Source: a virus
DNA length: 27,418 nt
Strand: one strand, 5' to 3'
IMG/VR virus record: IMGVR_UViG_3300037502_000954
Location: 1 to 27,418 of that record
Shown here piece by piece: positions 113 through 24,018 of this stretch. Every line of letters starts with the position of its first letter. Position 1 is the stretch's first letter. The notes under the pieces are model-generated. The model was not told the origin of the DNA, searched no databases, and was given only the letters and a program-made list of their open reading frames with translations. The position numbers and the translations under genes are program-made.

Positions 113-472
113 ATGGCAGCACCCAATATAGTTAACGTTACTACCATTATAGGAAGAACCGCAGGAGCAGCGCTTACTACGTCTACTGCAGATATTGTAA
201 CTAACGCAGCAGCAAGTAATAAAGTATTTAAAATAAATGCTATTTATGTAGCGAACGTAGATGGCGTTAGTAGTGCTGATGCTACAGTATCTTTTTTTAA
301 TGCCGACAATACAACATCATATAAATTAGCTCATACGATTACAGTACCTGCTGATGCAACATTAGATTTAATAAGCAAACATATTTATCTTGAAGAAGGT
401 GACAAAATTACAGCTTCTGCTTCTGCTAACGGAGACTTGGAAATCGTTGTTTCATATGAGGAAATAAATTAA
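113..472 (+). CDS. Small phage virion-type protein, 119 aa
   Basis: The protein starts MAAPNIVNVTTI and is dominated by alternating hydrophobic and polar stretches typical of beta strands (KVFKINAIYVANV, residues about 42-54; ATVSFFNA; HTITVPADATLDLI). It ends with YLEEGDKITASASANGDLEIVVSYEE, a pattern of a small beta-sandwich. Proteins of this look are frequent next to tail-fibre genes in environmental phages and are usually annotated as hypothetical or virion structural proteins. I recognise the pattern but not a biochemical role. There is no signal peptide or membrane segment. Its stop overlaps the next start (TAATG), so it is coupled to the glycine-rich gene that follows. A role as a small capsid or fibre decoration is inference from position and fold only. 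Confidence 0.75.
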   Translation: MAAPNIVNVTTIIGRTAGAALTTSTADIVTNAAASNKVFKINAIYVANVDGVSSADATVSFFNADNTTSYKLAHTITVPADATLDLISKHIYLEEGDKITASASANGDLEIVVSYEEIN

Positions 473-1350
473 TGAAACGTCATAATGGCGGAATAGTTGG
501 TAGATTTAATGCTACATCCCAATCATCTGCTAGAGGTAGATTTTCTTTACCTGAAATACAAGAAGCTCTTTTAAATGGCACTTGGCCGTTACAAATTATT
601 ACTGCTGACTATTTAGTAGTTGCGGGCGGTGGCGGTGGTGGAGCAGATAATATTAATGGAACTCAAGGCGGTGGAGGCGGTGCTGGTGGACTATTAACTG
701 GATCTGTAACATTATCTAGTAGTACAGTTTATACAATTACTGTAGGCGGTGGAGGTAGCGGAGCTGGCGGTTCTAATCGTGGCGGTTCGGGCACAAATTC
801 AGTATTAAGTGGAACAGGTTTAACTACTGTAACATCAATTGGTGGTGGTGGCGGTGGATCAAGAAATAATAATACTGGTATAAGTGGAGGTTCAGGTGGA
901 GCAGCAACCAATAATAACACTGCTGGATCAGGAACTGCAGGTCAAGGTAATAATGGTGGTGTAGGTAACAGCGATGGTGGCGGCGGTGGCGGCGGTGCTG
1001 GCGCAGTGGGTGGCCAGTTTAATGGAGCTAGTGGATCAGCATCTTCTATCACAGGTACTTCAGTATTTTATGCTGGTGGTGGAGGAGGTAGATTAGGATC
1101 GTCACCATTTACTCTAGGGTCTGGTGGAGCAGGCGGAGGTGGAAGTTATGGAAATAGTGGAAGCCCTAATACTGGTGGTGGCGGAGGTGGCGGTGGCGGT
1201 GGCGGTGGAGCTGCTGGTGGTTCAGGAGTAGTTATTTTAAGCATTCCAACATCAAAATATTCTGGCACAACTACAGGATCGCCTACTATAACAACATCAG
1301 GATCTAATACAATTTTAACATATACAGCTTCAGGCACATACACAGCATAA
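472..1350 (+). CDS. Glycine-rich tail adhesin-like protein, copy 1
   Basis: A head of about 45 residues (ending LNGTWPLQIITAD) leads into YLVVAGGGGGG and then about 190 residues dominated by glycine with Ser, Thr and Asn, including a run of 12 glycines encoded at 1174-1209. The last 42 residues form a less glycine-rich cap ending TASGTYTA. The YLVVAGGGGGG...GGGGAGG layout is the glycine-rich domain seen in many phage and bacterial surface proteins. It resembles the polyglycine-II sandwich of T-even gp38 adhesins, which bind outer-membrane receptors at fibre tips. Receptor binding is therefore the likely role, by analogy. GAGGA at 458-462 lies nine bases before the ATG. The cap is nearly repeated in the next gene (36 of 42 residues identical). 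Proline-rich frames on the other strand are shadows of the glycine codons. Confidence 0.8.
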   Translation: MKRHNGGIVGRFNATSQSSARGRFSLPEIQEALLNGTWPLQIITADYLVVAGGGGGGADNINGTQGGGGGAGGLLTGSVTLSSSTVYTITVGGGGSGAGGSNRGGSGTNSVLSGTGLTTVTSIGGGGGGSRNNNTGISGGSGGAATNNNTAGSGTAGQGNNGGVGNSDGGGGGGGAGAVGGQFNGASGSASSITGTSVFYAGGGGGRLGSSPFTLGSGGAGGGGSYGNSGSPNTGGGGGGGGGGGGAAGGSGVVILSIPTSKYSGTTTGSPTITTSGSNTILTYTASGTYTA

Positions 1351-1359
1351 GGATAAATC

Positions 1360-2346
1360 ATGTCATTAACTCAAGTCACAAGTGGTCTAATAGCTTCTGG
1401 TGTAACTCTTACAAACCCGACTATTTCAGGCCAATTAAATCTTCCTACATGGACAACTGGGACAAGACCTTCTAGCCCTGCTACAGGAACAACAGGATAC
1501 AATACAACAACTGTAAATATAGAAGTTTATAATGGCACCACATGGCAAGGCTCAAATGTTGGACCATCTTATTCTGCATCTTATTTAATTGTAGCAGGTG
1601 GAGGTGCAGGAGGTAGTACAAGTAGTCCAAGCGATTGGGAAACAGGCGGTGGTGGCGGTGCTGGTGGATTATTATCTGGAACATCAACACTACTTACAGG
1701 TACAACTTATTCATTTACTGTTGGTGCTGGTGGCGCTGGAGTATCATCTAATAAAGGTAATAGTGGTAATAATTCAACAGGTTTTAGCCTTACAGCTATT
1801 GGGGGTGGAGCTGGTGGTGGTAGAAATAGTGCTCCTAATTCTGGTGGTTCTGGTGGTGGTGGAGAAGCTAATGATAAAATGACTGGCGCTGCAGGTACAT
1901 CAGGACAAGGTTTTGCTGGTGGAAATGGTGGAGGTGGACCAGGTAATGGAGCTGGCGGTGGCGGAGGTTCATCTGCAGTAGGTGGTAATCATAGTGGATC
2001 TACAGGCGGTGCTGGTGGCGCAGGTACAGCAAGTTCTATTACAGGTTCGTCAGTAACTTATGCAGGTGGCGGTGGAGGTTCAAGAGCTCAAGCTGGTGGC
2101 TCTGGCGGTTCTGGCGGTGCTGGTGGTGGAGGAGCTGGTGGAGGAACTAGCGGTACGGCAAATACTGGTGGCGGAGGTGGAGGTAATTTTAATGGTGGCA
2201 CAGGCGGTTCTGGTGGTTCAGGTGTTGTTATTCTTTCTGTTCCAACTGCATCATACTCAGGTACAACCACAGGCTCACCTACAATTACTACATCAGGTTC
2301 AAACACAATTATAAGATTCACAGCTTCAGGAACATATACAGCATAA
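1360..2346 (+). CDS. Glycine-rich tail adhesin-like protein, copy 2
   Basis: The first 75 residues look like a fibre-attachment segment: MSLTQVTSGLIASGVTL, then PSSPATGTTGYNTTT and IEVYNGTTWQG. The last pattern is common in phage tail proteins. YLIVAGGGAGG then opens a glycine-rich domain of roughly 210 residues, closed by the cap SGVVILSVPT...TASGTYTA shared with the preceding gene. The heads of the two proteins differ while the caps match, suggesting a shared C-terminal module on different attachment domains. AAGGA at 1349-1353 lies six bases before the ATG. The role is inferred to be host recognition at the fibre tip. It could instead be a structural fibre protein that merely carries this domain. 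Confidence 0.8.
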   Translation: MSLTQVTSGLIASGVTLTNPTISGQLNLPTWTTGTRPSSPATGTTGYNTTTVNIEVYNGTTWQGSNVGPSYSASYLIVAGGGAGGSTSSPSDWETGGGGGAGGLLSGTSTLLTGTTYSFTVGAGGAGVSSNKGNSGNNSTGFSLTAIGGGAGGGRNSAPNSGGSGGGGEANDKMTGAAGTSGQGFAGGNGGGGPGNGAGGGGGSSAVGGNHSGSTGGAGGAGTASSITGSSVTYAGGGGGSRAQAGGSGGSGGAGGGGAGGGTSGTANTGGGGGGNFNGGTGGSGGSGVVILSVPTASYSGTTTGSPTITTSGSNTIIRFTASGTYTA

Positions 2347-3257
2347 TGTTTGGTAATTCCGCCTTTGCCGTAGCCCCTTTTGCAACCCTAGGTGGAGGCA
2401 CAGCATTTACGTTTTCTCTAGTTGAAAATATCAACATGGCTGACGCAAGTAACCAAGTTTTTGCATACGCACCATCAGTCACAGAGAACGTAGTCATGGA
2501 TGATATTGATGCTACAGCAGGTTCGTTCTTTGGGCTTATCAATGAATTTGTAGCGATGAACGATGCAAGTGCTCAGACATTTAATTTTGTACAAAGTATT
2601 ACAGAAGACACCGTCGTATTAACTGATTCATCAACAATATCAGCACAGTTCGCAGCAAGTCAAACAGAAGACGTAGTGATGGACGATGTAAGAATAGATT
2701 ACTTTGCTGCATTACAATCCAGACTAGAACCTTTTGTGATGGATGATATAAGAAGTATAGCTGCTAACTTTGCAGTGTCAGATACAGAAAATGTTAACCT
2801 AGCTGATACACCTAATATCACAGCGCAGTTTGCAGTGTCAAGAACAGAGAACGTAAATCTTCATGACTTAAATAACATAACTGCTAACTTTAATGTAGTC
2901 CGCGCTGAGAACGTAGTCATGGATGATTTAGAATCTATCATATCTGTGTTTACCTTCTCAATTACTGAACCTGTCACTATGGCAGATGCAAATGCAACCC
3001 AAGCTAACTTTGTGTCAAGTATTGCAGAAAATGTTAATATGGCAGATACCTATACAGTGGTGGCTAACTTTGCGGTGTCCATTACTGAGGCTATTAGAAT
3101 ACTTGATGATATATGTTACAACGGCTGGTTTAGAATTGATGATAGCCAAACACCTTCATGGACTGCGATTGCAACACCGGCTGGGGTCTGGGTAGATATA
3201 AACGATGCACAAACACCAAGTTGGGGCGTAATTGATACCTCTCAACCATGTAAATAA
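2346..3257 (+). CDS. Virion-type protein built of eleven 20-residue repeats
   Basis: After a 26-residue head (MFGNSAFAVAPFATLGGG...), residues 27-247 fall into 11 consecutive units. Ten are exactly 20 residues and one is 21. The consensus is E-N-V-x-M-x-D-(x)6-F-x-V-S-x-T. A degenerate twelfth unit begins at residue 248 (EAIRILDD). The C-terminus carries two copies of I-D/N-D-x-Q-T-P-S-W about 20 residues apart, a motif I recall from other phage virion proteins. Alternating polar and hydrophobic residues suggest two short strands per unit and so a beta-solenoid or fibrous shaft, which is inference. The start overlaps the upstream stop (TAATG at 2344-2348). Location among fibre genes supports a fibre or baseplate-decoration role. 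No family name can be given. Confidence 0.8.
   Translation: MFGNSAFAVAPFATLGGGTAFTFSLVENINMADASNQVFAYAPSVTENVVMDDIDATAGSFFGLINEFVAMNDASAQTFNFVQSITEDTVVLTDSSTISAQFAASQTEDVVMDDVRIDYFAALQSRLEPFVMDDIRSIAANFAVSDTENVNLADTPNITAQFAVSRTENVNLHDLNNITANFNVVRAENVVMDDLESIISVFTFSITEPVTMADANATQANFVSSIAENVNMADTYTVVANFAVSITEAIRILDDICYNGWFRIDDSQTPSWTAIATPAGVWVDINDAQTPSWGVIDTSQPCK
2424..3086 (+). repeat. Eleven tandem 60-bp coding repeats (20-aa units)
   Basis: The units begin at each Glu of the ENVxMxD motif. Successive lengths in residues are 20, 20, 20, 21, 20, 20, 20, 20, 20, 20, 20. DNA identity is patchy; for example GCTAACTTTG recurs in several units. The array is therefore old and maintained at protein level, not a fresh expansion. 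Confidence 0.85.
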
Positions 3258-4406: not shown

Positions 4407-5096
4407 ATGCCATTACTAGCAAGAAGATCAGTATTAGCAGCAAGAGCCTACGGATTAACCTCATCACAATATAAACCAGGCTCACAAACATTTACGTCTA
4501 GTGGAACTTTTACTGTTCCTATTGATGTTAGACAACTTACTATTACTATGACGGGTGGTTCTGGTGGTGGAGGTGGTGGAGGTACTGGAGCGGGACAGAC
4601 AGGTAGTACTTCTGGAAAAGATATTAGAACTATTACAGTTAATCCTAATGAGACAATAACTATTACAATAGGACAAGGCGGTCAAGGTGGTAGGTCAGGT
4701 ATTTCTAACTGCGGAAGTAATGCTATAAATTGGTTTAACATTGATAATAATCCATCTGACAGAAGAGGTTTTGGAGGGACGGGTTATGTTAATGGTGGTG
4801 CTGGAAGTGGTGCAGGATGCCCAAACTCATTTAACTCTACAGGTGGATGGTCTGGAGGCGGTGGAGGATCAACTGCTTATGTATACTCAGGTGGAACAGT
4901 AACTGCAGGTGGAGGTAATGGTGGTAATGGTGGTATAAATTATGCCGGTGGCAGTGGCACAGGAGGTACTGGAGGTAATTCAGGTACTGGAAATCAAGGT
5001 GCTACAGGTGTAGCTGGAGGTGCGGGTCAAGGTGCTACATTTGCCGGTGGATACGGAGGAGATGGTTCTGCAGGTTCTTTAAGTATTGTATGGTAA
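4407..5096 (+). CDS. Glycine-rich adhesin-like protein, copy 3 (gp38-like style)
   Basis: Residues about 27-50 read SQTFTSSGTFTVPIDVRQLT and then TITMTGG, the strand pair that usually precedes a polyglycine domain in phage adhesins (FTVPxxVxxxxxxxxGGGGGG). The rest is a glycine-rich field with Ser, Asn and Thr, ending GSAGSLSIVW. Unlike the two glycine-rich proteins at 472-2346 it lacks the TASGTYTA cap, and it has two cysteines in its middle (SNCGSN and GAGCPN). It follows the 368-aa fibre gene by only seven bases, so it may be that fibre's tip adhesin, as gp38 caps the gp37 fibre in T-even phages. That pairing is inference from order. Its last seven bases overlap the next gene. Confidence 0.75.
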   Translation: MPLLARRSVLAARAYGLTSSQYKPGSQTFTSSGTFTVPIDVRQLTITMTGGSGGGGGGGTGAGQTGSTSGKDIRTITVNPNETITITIGQGGQGGRSGISNCGSNAINWFNIDNNPSDRRGFGGTGYVNGGAGSGAGCPNSFNSTGGWSGGGGGSTAYVYSGGTVTAGGGNGGNGGINYAGGSGTGGTGGNSGTGNQGATGVAGGAGQGATFAGGYGGDGSAGSLSIVW

Positions 5097-5392
5097 CTTA
5101 TAAAGAATCAGTTGAGTTTATTAATAATCACCAAAACAAATTAAGGGCAGTTATCATGACTACTTTAAGTTGTAATGCTTGTGAACCTATTATTAATATA
5201 TTTAACGAGTCTACTATACCGTTTATTGCATTAAACGCAGATTCAGATGATTTAATTTATAAGCCACTTGGTTATCCACAAACGTATTTGTTTTCTGAAA
5301 GTAATAGATGTTATACAAGGGTTGACGTCTTTGATTCTAGAATGTTTTATGAGTGGGTAGATAAAATTAAGGATTGGGAAAAAACAGAATGA
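5090..5392 (+). CDS. Thioredoxin-fold protein with CxxC, 100 aa
   Basis: A predicted helix (KESVEFINNH) and strand (RAVIMTT) lead to C28-N-A-C31. A second strand (IPFIALNAD), a Tyr-Pro at 62-63 in the position of the thioredoxin cis-proline (GYPQTYLF) and a C-terminal helix follow. This order is that of a minimal thioredoxin or glutaredoxin fold, so it may reduce or exchange disulfides. CNAC is not the classical CGPC or CPYC. There is no signal peptide, so action in the cytoplasm is expected. The chosen ATG overlaps the upstream gene by seven bases and has a weak ribosome binding site. A later ATG at 5156 would remove the first helix and strand, which argues against it. It overlaps the next gene by four bases (ATGA). 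Confidence 0.7.
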   Translation: MVTYKESVEFINNHQNKLRAVIMTTLSCNACEPIINIFNESTIPFIALNADSDDLIYKPLGYPQTYLFSESNRCYTRVDVFDSRMFYEWVDKIKDWEKTE

Positions 5393-7593: not shown

Positions 7594-8042
7594 TGAAAAC
7601 TTCAGAACGTGCTATCAAACTTATTAAACATCATGAAGGCATTCGTAATAGGCCCTATCGTTGTCCTGCTGGGTTGTGGACTGTGGGCGTGGGTCATCTT
7701 ATTGGTGATGGTAAATCGTTGCCTGAATCTTGGAATAGACTTTTTACGAAAGAAGAAATAGATGGAATTCTTAAACGAGACCTCCAACGTTTTGAGCGTG
7801 GAGTACTTAAGATGTTACCTAACGTGCCTCTTAGACAACATGAATTTGATTGCCTTGTATCTTTTTGCTTCAATTTGGGCTTGGGGACATTTCAAAGGTC
7901 AACACTCCGTCAAGCGCTTCTTAGGGGCGATAAAAAGGCGGCTATGGAATCGTTAGTGAAATATTGTCGTGCAGGTGGTAAAATACTACGAGGCCTACAA
8001 ATTCGTAGACTAGATGAACGTGCACTCTTTGAGGGTAGATAA
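7593..8042 (+). CDS. Endolysin, GH24 lysozyme (muramidase), 149 aa
   Basis: The protein has the compact size of T4/P21-type lysozymes. The catalytic stretch is HHEG followed by RPYRCPAGLWTVGVGH, giving Glu15, eight residues, Cys24, five residues, Thr30: the E-8-D/C-5-T triad of the family with Cys in the middle position. Later signatures include LRQHEFDCLVSFCFNLGLG, the conserved helix and N-G turn region, and a C-terminal LQIRRLDERALF where the family has GLxxRRxxExxLF. It hydrolyses the N-acetylmuramic acid/N-acetylglucosamine bond of peptidoglycan. There is no signal peptide or SAR segment, so release through the adjacent holin is expected. It overlaps both neighbours by one base (TAATG). 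Confidence 0.95.
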   Translation: MKTSERAIKLIKHHEGIRNRPYRCPAGLWTVGVGHLIGDGKSLPESWNRLFTKEEIDGILKRDLQRFERGVLKMLPNVPLRQHEFDCLVSFCFNLGLGTFQRSTLRQALLRGDKKAAMESLVKYCRAGGKILRGLQIRRLDERALFEGR

Positions 8043-10006
8043 TGGCATTAAGTAAATTAGTATTTAAACCCGGCGTTAACCGAGATCAAACTAACTACGC
8101 ATCAGAAGGTGGTTGGTATGAAACTCAACTCGTTCGTTTTAGATCAGGCTTCCCTGAAAAGTTTGGCGGTTGGACTGTATCTAACTTAAATGCTTATACT
8201 GATTCTGCTCGTGCTGTATTCTCATGGTCAACGACTGACGGATCTAATCTATTAGGTATTGGCACTAACTCAAGAATTTATGTAGGCGCAGGTACAACAT
8301 TACACGACATTACACCGATCTATGATACATATACATCTCCTGATACAGATAATTGTATCGCTACTACGAATGGATCTAAAACGGTAACTGTAACTATAAC
8401 AGGACACGGCGCTACGACAGGAACTTATGTAACATTTAGCGGTATTGCGGGCCCTACGATTGGTGGCATTCCTGTTACTGAAATGAACACGACAGTGCAA
8501 GTGACAACACTTGATTCTAATACATTTACATTCCAAGCCACGACTACTGCTACCTCAACTACAACAGGTCAAGGTGGTACGGGTATTACAGCTGTTGTTT
8601 ATATGCCAGCTGGGTTCCCTATCGCTACTGCAGGTTATGGCTGGGGTACTTCTACTTGGGGTCGTAGTACTTGGGGTTCTGGATCAACATCACCTATCTT
8701 CCAACCTGCACGTCTTATCTTTATGGATAAGTTTAATAATGATTTAGTATTTAATACACAATTCGATTCTGTGTCAAGTACAGGCGGCGAGATTTATTAT
8801 TGGCAATATAACACAGCGTTTAGTAATGATGCAGTTTTATTAAAATCATTGGCAGGCGCGGTTGCAGTACCACAAAAAGTCACTAAAATATTATTTACAC
8901 CACAAGGGTTCTTACTAGCGTTAGGATGTACTAACTATGATGCACTCGCTCCAAGCCCAGATTATTTAGGTACTTATGACCCATTACTTATTAGATGGTC
9001 TAATGTTGATCCTGATATTGGTCCTGAACCTGAAAATTGGCAACCTTTAACTACTAATTCAGCAGGGTTCTTGCGACTTCAATCAGGTTCAAGAATTGTA
9101 ACTGCAATTAATACCCGACAAGAAACTTTAGTATTTACTAATACATCATTAACTTCTATTCAATTTTTAGGTACGGCTGAAGTATTTGGTTTACAAGAGT
9201 TGTCCCATAATATTTCTATCATAGGTGCTAATGCACTTGTAGGTTCTAACAACATTACTTACTGGATGGGCCGTGATAGATTCTATACATACTCTGGTCG
9301 TGTAGATACATTACCTTGTACAATCAGACAATACATATTTACTGATATTAACTTTACTCAAAGTGCACTTATTTTTGCAGGGGTTAATAATAAATTTACA
9401 GAGATTATTTGGTTTTATTGTTCTGCTAACTCATCTGAAATTGATCGATATGTTGTATTTAACTACCTTGAAAACATTTGGTATTACGGACAACTATCAA
9501 GAACTGCATGGATAGATTCTGGCGTATTTAATAATCCTGTAGGACTATCTAATGGCTGGGTGTATCAACATGAAAACGGCACAAACGACGGCCAACCACT
9601 AGGTGCAGCACCGCTACCAATTACATCTTTTATTCAATCTGCTGACGTTGATATTGACGATGGTGATAAATATATGTTAATACGTCGTGTGATTCCAGAT
9701 ATTAACTTTAGAGGTTCTGATACTAATAATGAAGTAACGGGGGCTCCGATTATACCTGAAGCTGATATTACTGTAGGCGTACGTAATTTCCCAGGTGCTT
9801 CTAATGCTACTATAAATGCAGAAGGCCAACCAACAGATGCTACCATTGTGACTGCAACAGCTACTGTAGATCAATATACTAACCAAGTATTTATTAGAGC
9901 ACGTGGTCGTCAAATGAATTTTAGAATTGGATCAGATACAGTAGGTACACAATGGCAATTAGGTTTACCAAGAGTTGATGCACGCCCAGACGGAACGAGA
10001 AACTAA
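8042..10006 (+). CDS. Tail hub / DNA stabilisation protein (P22 gp10-like), 654 aa
   Basis: The opening LVFKPGVNRDQTNYASEGGW and RFRSGFPEKFGGW, and the ending RARGRQMNFRIGSD with WQLGLPRVDARPDGTR, are hallmarks of a virion protein family common in podovirus-like phages and related to P22 gp10-type tail hub proteins. Between them are repeating blade-like strands (VFSWSTTDGSNLLGIGTNS, ETLVFTNTSLTSIQFLG, NITYWMGRDRFYTYSG), as in a beta-propeller. Residues about 100-190 (ITGHGATTGTYVTFSG to TFTFQATTT) look like an inserted immunoglobulin-like domain. It would close the portal channel and hold packaged DNA, as gp10 does. GAGGG at 8031-8035 is six bases before the ATG. The gp10 equivalence is family recollection; a generic tail structural protein is the fallback. 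Confidence 0.75.
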   Translation: MALSKLVFKPGVNRDQTNYASEGGWYETQLVRFRSGFPEKFGGWTVSNLNAYTDSARAVFSWSTTDGSNLLGIGTNSRIYVGAGTTLHDITPIYDTYTSPDTDNCIATTNGSKTVTVTITGHGATTGTYVTFSGIAGPTIGGIPVTEMNTTVQVTTLDSNTFTFQATTTATSTTTGQGGTGITAVVYMPAGFPIATAGYGWGTSTWGRSTWGSGSTSPIFQPARLIFMDKFNNDLVFNTQFDSVSSTGGEIYYWQYNTAFSNDAVLLKSLAGAVAVPQKVTKILFTPQGFLLALGCTNYDALAPSPDYLGTYDPLLIRWSNVDPDIGPEPENWQPLTTNSAGFLRLQSGSRIVTAINTRQETLVFTNTSLTSIQFLGTAEVFGLQELSHNISIIGANALVGSNNITYWMGRDRFYTYSGRVDTLPCTIRQYIFTDINFTQSALIFAGVNNKFTEIIWFYCSANSSEIDRYVVFNYLENIWYYGQLSRTAWIDSGVFNNPVGLSNGWVYQHENGTNDGQPLGAAPLPITSFIQSADVDIDDGDKYMLIRRVIPDINFRGSDTNNEVTGAPIIPEADITVGVRNFPGASNATINAEGQPTDATIVTATATVDQYTNQVFIRARGRQMNFRIGSDTVGTQWQLGLPRVDARPDGTRN

Positions 10007-20993: not shown

Positions 20994-21182
20994 TCGCCAG
21001 ACTCTAATACCTTTAACCCCGTCTTCTATAACAACTTTGTGAACGAACTGAAACTCTAGTCGTTCACTTTCTTTTTGGATAGCTTTAATAGCTGCCTCTG
21101 TATCAATAGCAGGTATAAAGATAGATGAGCCTGGCACAAAGGCAGGCCAATCTATTTGGTAATTTACGCCGTTAGTTAACAC
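20988..21182 (-). CDS. Small phage protein after the primase-helicase, 64 aa
   Basis: From a GTG at 21182-21180 the protein reads MLTNGVNYQIDWPAFVPGSS and later IPAIDTEAAIKAIQKESERL, ending VVIEDGVKGIRVWRL. The D/N-W-x-x-F-x-P-G-x-S-x-F-I-P opening and the ending IEDGVxGxRVWR are recurring in small uncharacterised phage proteins near replication genes. A longer reading from a GTG at 21260 would overlap the primase gene by 89 bases and adds residues that look like its frame shadow, so I prefer the shorter form, which overlaps it by 11 bases. The ribosome binding site is weak (GGA eleven bases upstream). Basic and acidic residues alternate and no enzyme motif is seen. The function is unknown. 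The stop lies across the end of the opposing 1791-aa gene. Confidence 0.6.
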   Translation of the reverse strand: MLTNGVNYQIDWPAFVPGSSIFIPAIDTEAAIKAIQKESERLEFQFVHKVVIEDGVKGIRVWRL

Positions 21183-24018
21183 TTCGTGGTATATCCAATG
21201 GTAAGTCGTTAGTCTTAATTCCTTCAAAGCTAGAATTATCAATCCATATGCATCGAACACCTGAGCCGCTGATGTCTAATCCTTTTTGTAGCACTTTGGA
21301 ATCTCCTGATTTATACTTCAAAACATTATTGTCTTTAAGCTTTTTAATAAAGTCCTCGTAATCTACGTTGCCAAGGTTCTTTAAATATGAGCGCATTATA
21401 CCGCAAGGAATATAAATTGTATTAGTATCAGGCTCAATTCTGACTCGTAACTCATTGATTGGTTTCAATAAAGGAGCTTCTTGTAATCCTGTTCGTGCAT
21501 CTATAACACTATTAATAACTAAAGTGTTCTTTAAGTTTTCATGTAAGAATGTAGTTAAAGTTTCCATAGCATCAAAATCACGAGCCTTGAGTTCTATTCT
21601 AGATTTATCTAACTCTAACTTAATAGCTTTTTTAACGGGTTCTAAGTCTATATTATGGATACCTAATTGTTTCGCTATTTGAGCGCCTAAGAATACGGCA
21701 GCTAATGTAGCAGAATATTTGCGGTCTTCACCAGCTATGTTCCATGCCTTATCAATTTTCTCTTGTGTTTCTTTTAAAGCTATTCTTACTGATTCAAGAT
21801 TAGATATAATCCATTGAGCATAGATTTCACCTGCATGTCCATAGTTATCAAATAATCTACCAAAGTAATCATCAGCTTCTTTTTTTGTTAAGCTATTGTC
21901 TTTATCAATACGTAATTGTAAGAAGCGAGCCATTTCACCTGAAGCTTTAGCATTTGATGAGAACATAACTGTTCTAAAGTCGGTATTAGAAGATACAACG
22001 CAAATCAAATTAAAGACGGTATCGTTTTGTCTTTCTTTATTTGTGCCGCCACTACCCATACGATTTCTACCACGACCTGTTGACATGAACTTTAAAAACT
22101 CATGTAGTTGATCAGGTGTTACTTTAGTAAATTCATCAACCGCTGCAGGTAAATTATTCATATAACCCATACGATTAATTACGGCATTACCTGTATCACC
22201 CCATACTTGAATAAGTTTAGCTGATAATTCAGGGTTACCATATACGCTAGTCATAGCTTGTAATACTGTAGATTTACCTTGTCCTGACTCAGGGTTGTAT
22301 AGATTAATTACGGCTGACTTTTCTCTTGTTTTAAAGAAAGGCATAAGTAAAGAACCAAATGCACAGAAAAAACCAAAAGCTCGTAACTCCATGCCAGGTC
22401 TTTCATAAACAGCTATAGCTTTCTTCCATTCTTCGTAAGTTCCTTTCTTTTGTAATGCAGGATTTACGTCACTTAAATCTTCAGATACAGGAACATACTT
22501 AATACCAAAAGCACTAATCTCACGATTACCTATAACAATTTTGTTATATACAGTATTCCAACCATACTGTTTATACATGGGTGTTGAAGCTTTCTGTTTT
22601 TGTTCAGCATCTACAACAGCTATAATGTAATCAATAACGTTGTCTAACTTTTTGCCATTCTTAACAATACCTTTAGCTACTAAAATCTTTCTAGCTTCAT
22701 CACGAGATAGTAATTGAGTTAGTGGCGCTATAAATTCTTGAACCCCTTCATGAGGAAGATGTAATTTAAACCATGCACAAAAACCAATAGCATGATCATT
22801 TAATATCTCAACAAGATAGAAGTCAAAGTCATACACCATGATAGCTTCTTCGTTCTCATCAGCTACAGTTTTATACACTCCACCATTCTTACCTCTGAAA
22901 TAAGGAAAAGGATAATCAGGAATTTGATAAGTAACTACTTCACCTAATTCTTCTGACTTAGCTTGAATAACATTATCTGCACCTTTAGAACGTAAAATAA
23001 CTCTGCCTAATTCTATAGGAGAAGTAATCTTTCCTTTATGTTTACACCCATCACAACCTTCAGGACGCAAGCCTTCAAACTGTCTACATGTATGTGGACC
23101 TGGTATAGCATTAGCTTTAGCTTCTGTTTTAGCGTAGTCATAATCAGGATGGTGTTTAGATATATTGTGTATAGCAGCTTCAGAATCTTCACAATAAGCA
23201 GCGATAGATAATCCTGATCTCCATAGTGGTTCTTCTACTGTAGCTTGTTTAGTCATGATATGAATGAGTTGCGCACAGCCATCATCTTTACGGCAGCGTT
23301 CAATAATCTTCATGAATTTAGATGAGTTATTTCCTAGTATAGCTTTTGTAGCTTCATCTAAAGGACGTTTAGCTTTAGGTTTATCTGATAGATGAATAGG
23401 AATAAGGCTTGCTAACTCATCAAAAGGAGTAGGTGTTCCTTCATTAAGAACAATTACATTTTCAGGTTTAGCTACATCTTTAAAATTCTTTGTGCCTGGA
23501 ACACGTAATATACGAGCCATGTCTGCAGTGCAAGCACCGTCAGCTTTAAGTCCGTGTTTAGCACACAAGAACTTTAATCCTTCAGCAACGGGTTGCCATA
23601 TAGCTTTATCTACAGGTTCAGTAAAAGGCCAATAACAATGAATACCCCTACCTGAATCTACAATAGTAGGTGCGGGAAGTTGTGTTGTATCTGTGAATGA
23701 ACGTAACGCTACAAGTGCTGCGTCTTTAGTTTCGTAGTCTTTCCATTTGCGTTTCTTTGTGTCAAAACCACAGTCTATATCAAGCCATAATATACGTTGT
23801 TCTTTAGCATTTGTTTTCTTGCGTTCTGTTGGTTCAACATATGTTGAACATGCAAAATAAACATCTTGCGTATCTACTAATAATTTATTTACTACTTCAA
23901 TTGCTTCGTCTATGGAATTTATAAACTTAGGAACTACTACATTCTGTTGGTCTTTGCCGAGGATACAATAATATCCTTGATCAGGCCATACTTGTTGTAA
24001 AAATTCTTTTGTTTGCAT
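21172..24018 (-). CDS. Primase-helicase (AEP-type primase plus DUF927-like ATPase), 948 aa
   Basis: Residues 76-130 hold the archaeo-eukaryotic primase signatures: LWLDIDCG (Asp80 and Asp82, metal ligands) and SGRGIHCYWPF (Ser122-His127). A third motif, MARILRVPGTKNFK, is at 168-181. Cys311, Cys322, Cys325 and His327 form a possible zinc site in the PriCT-like middle part. The C-terminal ATPase has Walker A NPESGQGKST (Lys582) and Walker B LPAAVDEF (Asp628, Glu629), followed by SSNTDFRTVMFSS and GEMARFLQLRID (Arg in the sensor or arginine-finger region), consistent with the DUF927/phage primase-helicase group. It would prime and unwind DNA at the phage fork. The ATG at 24018 has a weak GAGAG before it and follows a 103-bp gap, so it may have its own signals. 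Confidence 0.9.
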   Translation of the reverse strand: MQTKEFLQQVWPDQGYYCILGKDQQNVVVPKFINSIDEAIEVVNKLLVDTQDVYFACSTYVEPTERKKTNAKEQRILWLDIDCGFDTKKRKWKDYETKDAALVALRSFTDTTQLPAPTIVDSGRGIHCYWPFTEPVDKAIWQPVAEGLKFLCAKHGLKADGACTADMARILRVPGTKNFKDVAKPENVIVLNEGTPTPFDELASLIPIHLSDKPKAKRPLDEATKAILGNNSSKFMKIIERCRKDDGCAQLIHIMTKQATVEEPLWRSGLSIAAYCEDSEAAIHNISKHHPDYDYAKTEAKANAIPGPHTCRQFEGLRPEGCDGCKHKGKITSPIELGRVILRSKGADNVIQAKSEELGEVVTYQIPDYPFPYFRGKNGGVYKTVADENEEAIMVYDFDFYLVEILNDHAIGFCAWFKLHLPHEGVQEFIAPLTQLLSRDEARKILVAKGIVKNGKKLDNVIDYIIAVVDAEQKQKASTPMYKQYGWNTVYNKIVIGNREISAFGIKYVPVSEDLSDVNPALQKKGTYEEWKKAIAVYERPGMELRAFGFFCAFGSLLMPFFKTREKSAVINLYNPESGQGKSTVLQAMTSVYGNPELSAKLIQVWGDTGNAVINRMGYMNNLPAAVDEFTKVTPDQLHEFLKFMSTGRGRNRMGSGGTNKERQNDTVFNLICVVSSNTDFRTVMFSSNAKASGEMARFLQLRIDKDNSLTKKEADDYFGRLFDNYGHAGEIYAQWIISNLESVRIALKETQEKIDKAWNIAGEDRKYSATLAAVFLGAQIAKQLGIHNIDLEPVKKAIKLELDKSRIELKARDFDAMETLTTFLHENLKNTLVINSVIDARTGLQEAPLLKPINELRVRIEPDTNTIYIPCGIMRSYLKNLGNVDYEDFIKKLKDNNVLKYKSGDSKVLQKGLDISGSGVRCIWIDNSSFEGIKTNDLPLDIPRSVN

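Follow-up and report, generated by a model that had tools for sequence, protein, structure and literature searches.

A 20-residue repeat protein from the tail-gene region of an aquatic phage: a probable tail-fibre or tail-spike shaft whose relatives vary in length by whole units

Phage shafts built from repeats are already known. The architecture described here recurs in three named phages, whose proteins are annotated as 'serine-rich adhesin', 'HERC6' or hypothetical: UOF77505.1 of the podovirus ctXG6705 (similar leader MFGICSFSQAPFSSLAG, self-identity at lags 40 and 20, a Trp every 10 residues), gp51 of Methylophilales phage Venkman (QLF88126.1; similar leader MYGLSAFSQSPYSALG, lag 20, a Trp every 10) and gp68 of Pelagibacter phage HTVC023P (QGZ17697.1; looser leader LLGITAISQSPIASLGG, lag 22, a Trp every 11). 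Two more, ct2t2046 and DSL-LC04, encode such repeats with a Trp tail and no leader. In these five phages the repeat-protein gene adjoins, or lies one gene from, tail-fibre, collar, tail or stabilization genes; the first three sit beside tail, tail-fibre-like or collar genes, like the protein of this study. Venkman has a short podovirus-like tail in electron micrographs, with a warning from its authors about possible tail loss (PMC8163748).

Two other systems bear comparison. Mycobacterium phage Aminay gp26, a minor tail protein (phrog_416, phrog_356), combines in one chain a 20-residue array (lag-20 identity 0.53) and a glycine-rich C-terminal part (L034:4782-6191), a combination that hints at cooperation between shafts of this kind and glycine-rich tips. 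It has neither such a leader nor a Trp tail, and its match, obtained through a relative (L015), is weak (27% over 153 residues, E 1e-4); shared ancestry is unproven. The central fibres of Douge are described as trimeric and anchored by N-arms (PMC13033339).

The DNA analysed here (the window) is the 27,418-base virus record IMGVR_UViG_3300037502_000954 of an aquatic phage, and its features are collected in Table 1. The repeat protein P0001 shares the architecture outlined above: its start fits the leader motif MFGxxxFAQxPFAxLG, its repeat period falls on 20 where 20 or 22 is the rule, and its C-terminal Trp residues recur at 10-11 residues. Its repeats are of an ENxxxAD kind, unlike those of ctXG6705, Venkman and HTVC023P, which are of ASITATATV or VTGIQGTLALG types. 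When P0001 was compared by BLASTP with the ctXG6705 protein, only the leader aligned significantly (9/17 identical, E 0.005 in a single comparison); thus common descent beyond architecture is not proved.

Table 1. Features of the window around the repeat gene
Feature	Position	Strand	Basis or remark
Glycine-rich protein	472..1350		phrog_2295; Pfam Gly_rich_2 match
Upstream glycine-rich protein, 328 aa	1360..2346	+	phrog_2295; last base is first base of the repeat gene start codon
Repeat protein gene P0001	2346..3257	+	ORF, 303 aa; 29 IMG/VR relatives by direct search; dN well below dS
N-terminal leader, residues 1-26	2346..2423	+	MFGNSAFAVAPFATLGG...; resembles leaders of proteins with other repeat classes
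Eleven repeat units, residues 27-247	2424..3086	+	10 x 20 + 1 x 21 residues
Unit 4, sole 21-residue unit	2604..2666	+	segmentation of array
Twelfth unit start, residues 248-260	3087..3125	+	EAIRILDDICYNG; E248, D254, G260 invariant or nearly so
Trp-repeat tail, residues 261-303	3126..3254	+	four W..[IV] elements, 10-11 residues apart
Downstream tail-fibre homologue, 368 aa	3293..4399	+	PHROG tail-fibre matches; PDB 7z47, 8vbx; phage records
Glycine-rich protein	4407..5096		phrog_863; just below Pfam Gly_rich_2 cut-off
Small tail-cluster protein	5090..5392		weak thioredoxin-domain match (phrog_22, E 0.021)
Homologue of DSL-LC04 'stabilization protein', podovirus-type tail hub candidate	8042..10006	+	32.8% full length, E 4e-87
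DUF927 protein	21172..24018	-	E 2.7e-25; strand opposite to tail cluster

The initial annotation, made from the window alone, had described eleven units with one single-residue insertion, and its coordinates are exact. As a count of full units eleven stands; as the end of the array it does not, since the start of a twelfth unit (EAIRILDD..., from nucleotide 3087) runs on into the Trp tail, and proteins of P0001 length are therefore counted below as having 12 units. When residues 27-247 are compared with themselves, identity reaches 0.348 at lag 20, 0.326 at lag 40 and 0.286 at lag 60, against a maximum of 0.173 at any lag from 5 to 60 in 2000 shuffles. With one residue of unit 4 set aside, all eleven units have E at position 1 and D at position 7, and the repeat region is strongly acidic (32 D+E vs 5 K+R). 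At the DNA level the array is absent from Tandem Repeats Finder output, the mean nucleotide identity between units being 0.48, and comparison of the repeat region with seven relatives gives dN of 0.18-0.39 and dS of 0.73-2.18, the higher dS values being near saturation. The lack of a detected DNA repeat, together with dN well below dS, indicates an old array that has been kept as protein.

A direct search of IMG/VR with P0001 yielded 29 loci. Profile search confirmed at least 400 of 599 IMG/VR stretches as relatives, the best 80 of which were kept, and five DNA-pattern scans for the leader supplied further loci from among the matches listed. From 321 of the 328 loci (the seven from named records were left out) we obtained, among the matches listed, 175 distinct leader-bearing proteins, 165 of them complete; 141 of these are acid-type with a Trp tail and 24 fall outside that class. 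Conservation of the leader among relatives chosen by leader patterns is partly circular.

The 20-residue register, on which the initial annotation had staked its array, is common to the relatives. Segmented with no limit on step size, 123 proteins give 1079 steps of exactly 20 out of 1181, and 75 of 21; for all 141 acid-type proteins, under a segmentation confined to steps of 19-23 with a preference for 20, 1324 of 1427 steps are 20, 94 are 21, eight are 19 and one is 22. The strongest lag within 8-44 is 20 in 87 of the 123 proteins, 40 in 35 and 41 in one. The family consensus is about EN[IV]x[LM]xDxxxIxAxFxxSIT. By a profile trained on the same proteins, its most conserved positions are E1 (94%), D7 (88%) and F15 (77%), accompanied by I/V3, L/M5, I/V11, A13, S18, I19 and T20. 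The conserved hydrophobic positions 3, 5, 11 and 15 alternate, and the consensus contains no conserved glycine.

Outside the array, the tails of the 141 proteins space their Trp residues by 11 in 384 of 414 gaps. The 24 complete leader proteins beyond the acid class peak at lag 20 or 40 in 19 cases (ten of which form one near-identical group), at 22 in four and at 41 in one; several of the peaks, at 0.18-0.24, are near chance level. Leader proteins of the ctXG6705, Venkman and L171 type lack the acids at positions 1 and 7 and still repeat every 20 or 40 residues; the period can therefore exist without these acids. Some individual proteins are peculiar: (i) The 816-aa leader protein of L320 has a very long array, about 35 units as segmented, and an extended tail of Trp and other aromatic residues. 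(ii) The Trp tails at L276, L290 and L297 are interrupted by an insert in which a leader-like motif, GG[MT]PFASx[PS]FAG, occurs a second time. (iii) The repeat proteins of L248 and L249 are 97% identical, with L248 apparently truncated in the array and bearing an unrelated short end, the product of an assembly error or a frameshift.

Sequence searches agree with the initial annotation that the repeat has no named fold, none being recognized in Pfam, NCBIfam or PDB. P0001 matched nothing among phage records at E up to 1 and no PHROG family, and a 24-sequence profile matched no PDB chain at E up to 10; isolated PDB matches are at chance level, leaving the protein with no solved relative. Neither a known fibre family nor a solved fibre was matched in PHROG, Pfam, NCBIfam or PDB, and no calcium-binding (RTX-like) repeat profile in Pfam or NCBIfam. 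Matches of P0001 to HA70_C, DUF5834 and an ATP synthase delta model are well below the Pfam/NCBIfam cut-offs, and those of relatives to OSCP, the MukB hinge and others occur in no more than three of the 24 members, with E no better than 6e-4; we took these as chance. Relatives also gave weak matches to PHROG families with no named function (best phrog_15350, 4.4e-6; phrog_29691, 6.8e-6, in 4/24), and it was relatives, not P0001 itself, that gave the weak matches to MetMV (E 2e-3) and to Aminay gp26. A match to EBPR podovirus 1 was rejected as lying in a 60-base DNA minisatellite whose frame is broken by stops; this minisatellite (JF412294.1, L217:7958-8599) has 10.7 copies near one end of that record. 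A MinM2 gene upstream of a tail-fibre gene was likewise set aside, as having another architecture. The literature search found, in the accessible parts of the sources, nothing on the repeat protein itself; virion proteomics of such phages did not turn up either.

Unit number varies among related phages, a point the initial annotation had put forward for checking, and it does so by whole units. It could be counted in 139 acid-class proteins, i.e. the 141 less L111 (whose irregular array can be read as about 9 units) and the apparently truncated L248; the counts of L188, L282, L294 and L228 were set by hand or by length. There are four units in one protein, five in seven, six in two, seven in one, eight in 15, ten in four, 12 in 87, 13 in 13 and 16 in nine, while none of the 139 has 9, 11, 14 or 15. 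Multiples of four thus account for 112 of these proteins and other numbers (5, 6, 7, 10, 13) for 27, the proteins being kin and not independent draws.

Among the relatives, gains and losses tend to involve four units together. On a tree made from the flanks only (a similar tree had few columns and many weak forks), 28 changes of unit number are needed: 11 of four units, three of eight, four of one and ten of other sizes. Among the 16 changes that involve 12 units, 11 are of four. Disjoint pairs of unequal unit number differ by exactly four in 11 of 15 cases at 60% identity or more and in 15 of 24 at 50%; the 11 four-unit pairs appear to represent about six places in the tree, because several fall in one 8-unit group and two 16-unit groups. 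We aligned 12 pairs selected for a four-unit difference. In four of them (L234/L076, L101/L172, L224/L172 and L015/L005) a single 80-residue block makes up the difference, small gaps of 1-2 residues aside, and in six it is 80-82 residues split into two or three whole-unit pieces. The L039/L026 pair differs by 80 residues in the array and by 20 in the opposite direction, and in the L102/L081 pair (37% identical) the difference is scattered. Against a four-unit rule stands a sibling repeat class with a one-unit difference, 174 vs 194 residues.

Of all the results, this tendency surprises most. It suggests that four units, 80 residues, may form a structural module or a whole turn. A mutational cause, recombination between units four apart, is a possible alternative, identity at offset 4 being in some proteins slightly above that at other offsets (0.41 vs 0.28-0.39 in L234). 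With 12 as the main unit number, the units might also close into a ring or propeller; unit similarity by offset gave no clear two-unit pattern.

The initial annotation had offered a beta-solenoid or a fibrous shaft, with acidic positions stacking once per unit and perhaps forming a metal-binding ladder. In 807 three-unit windows (effective number 520), direct-coupling analysis showed residues two apart (i,i+2) to be strongly coupled over most of the unit, the pattern of extended strands, and revealed no antiparallel series. The strongest long-range couplings join equal positions of neighbouring units, namely 1, 5, 7 and 19 (averaged z 3.0, 2.8, 2.0 and 1.5; the next unequal pairs reach 1.4 and 1.3), a signal that may partly reflect the shared ancestry of neighbouring units. 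Such i,i+20 coupling, the conservation of E1 and D7 and the acidity of the region would all suit a parallel beta-solenoid formed by one chain, each unit making a 20-residue coil, with E1 and D7 side chains stacked and perhaps binding calcium. Monomeric solenoids are usually within AlphaFold2 reach, but neither monomer model predicted parallel stacked coils: the one from 24 sequences had pLDDT 31 and no secondary structure, and the one from 73 had pLDDT 45, one short helix and no paired strands. Models of such low confidence are weak evidence against a solenoid. The absence of a conserved glycine and the lack of the acids in some sibling classes also count against it, and we regard the solenoid as unlikely.

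The same pLDDT values, with the excess of acidic residues, might instead point to an acidic spacer or surface protein that is mostly disordered, its repeats adopting no fixed fold. Disorder with no stacking was the outcome that the initial annotation had set against its own proposal; stacking is indeed missing from the monomer models, but their low confidence does not amount to disorder. The alternating hydrophobics, the register and the four-unit preference are hard to explain with no structure, and we hold a disordered spacer to be slightly less probable than the solenoid. Poor monomer folding fits an intertwined fibre and fits disorder equally, monomer prediction being no test of a trimer or an intertwined oligomer.

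The gene neighbourhood bears out the placing of P0001 in a virion region, with tail-gene context both in the window and in the named phages. The next ORF downstream of 130 distinct leader ORFs is a tail-fibre homologue in 91, another ORF in 12 and a second leader ORF in one; for 26 no downstream ORF was seen, which may include contig ends. The homologue in the window matches tail or hypothetical genes in 22 phage records, including HTVC023P and cyanophages. It also matches, over about 50 residues each, the PDB tail fibres 7z47 (E 4e-9) and 8vbx (E 9e-6), whose chains we take to be trimers. The product of the tail hub candidate has weak matches to Venkman and ctXG6705 proteins. Upstream, the gene is not conserved (a homologue of the 328-aa glycine-rich protein in six relatives, other ORFs in 89, none in 40), and the one-base overlap recurs in 37 of the 95 upstream ORFs. 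The three glycine-rich neighbours of the repeat gene are perhaps adhesin tips. As the tail placing is read from gene context only, P0001 could be a non-fibre component of the tail or head that belongs to the tail cluster (an adaptor, assembly chaperone or decoration protein), the least probable of the alternatives given its repeat architecture and the position of such genes among fibre-type genes in several phages.

We think it rather probable that P0001 is the shaft protein of a tail fibre or tail spike in a podovirus-like phage, docked by its N terminus, oligomeric and all-beta, with a module of four units. The short leader would dock to the tail, and the twelve 20-residue units would form an extended, all-beta shaft, probably a homo-oligomer and, by analogy, most likely a trimer. 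The Trp-repeat tail may be the distal end or may join the shaft to a partner, for instance one of the neighbouring glycine-rich or tail-fibre proteins, and shaft length would shift by whole units, often in blocks of four. In favour of a shaft we count the tail-fibre homologue downstream and the similar architecture near tail genes in named phages, as well as the i,i+2 and equal-position couplings, the register, the whole-unit variation and the purifying selection. Against it weigh the changing upstream gene and the failure of the searches and monomer models to yield a solved relative or a confident structure. The likeness to trimeric tail fibres (Douge, 7z47, 8vbx) lies in the proposed N-anchored shaft role, and 7z47 and 8vbx match the product of the neighbouring gene, not the repeat protein. 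Of the initial annotation, the register, the varying unit number, the tail context and the lack of a named fold are retained, and the beta-solenoid is disfavoured.

A bolder reading, which we advance tentatively and at less than even odds, is that the shaft has an uncharacterized fold with a 20-residue rung and a four-rung period, that selection in most of the lineages seen favours 80-residue blocks, and that one type of leader and Trp end serves chemically different 20- and 22-residue repeats. If it is true, a large family that keeps a 20-residue register and prefers steps of four units would express the geometric rule of a fold, one missed by the profile libraries searched, by PDB sequences and by monomer prediction. 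Architectural relatives are carried by the cultured phages Venkman and HTVC023P, which makes the proposal testable, and it would help to give fitting names to proteins that databases now list as hypothetical, HERC6 or serine-rich adhesin.
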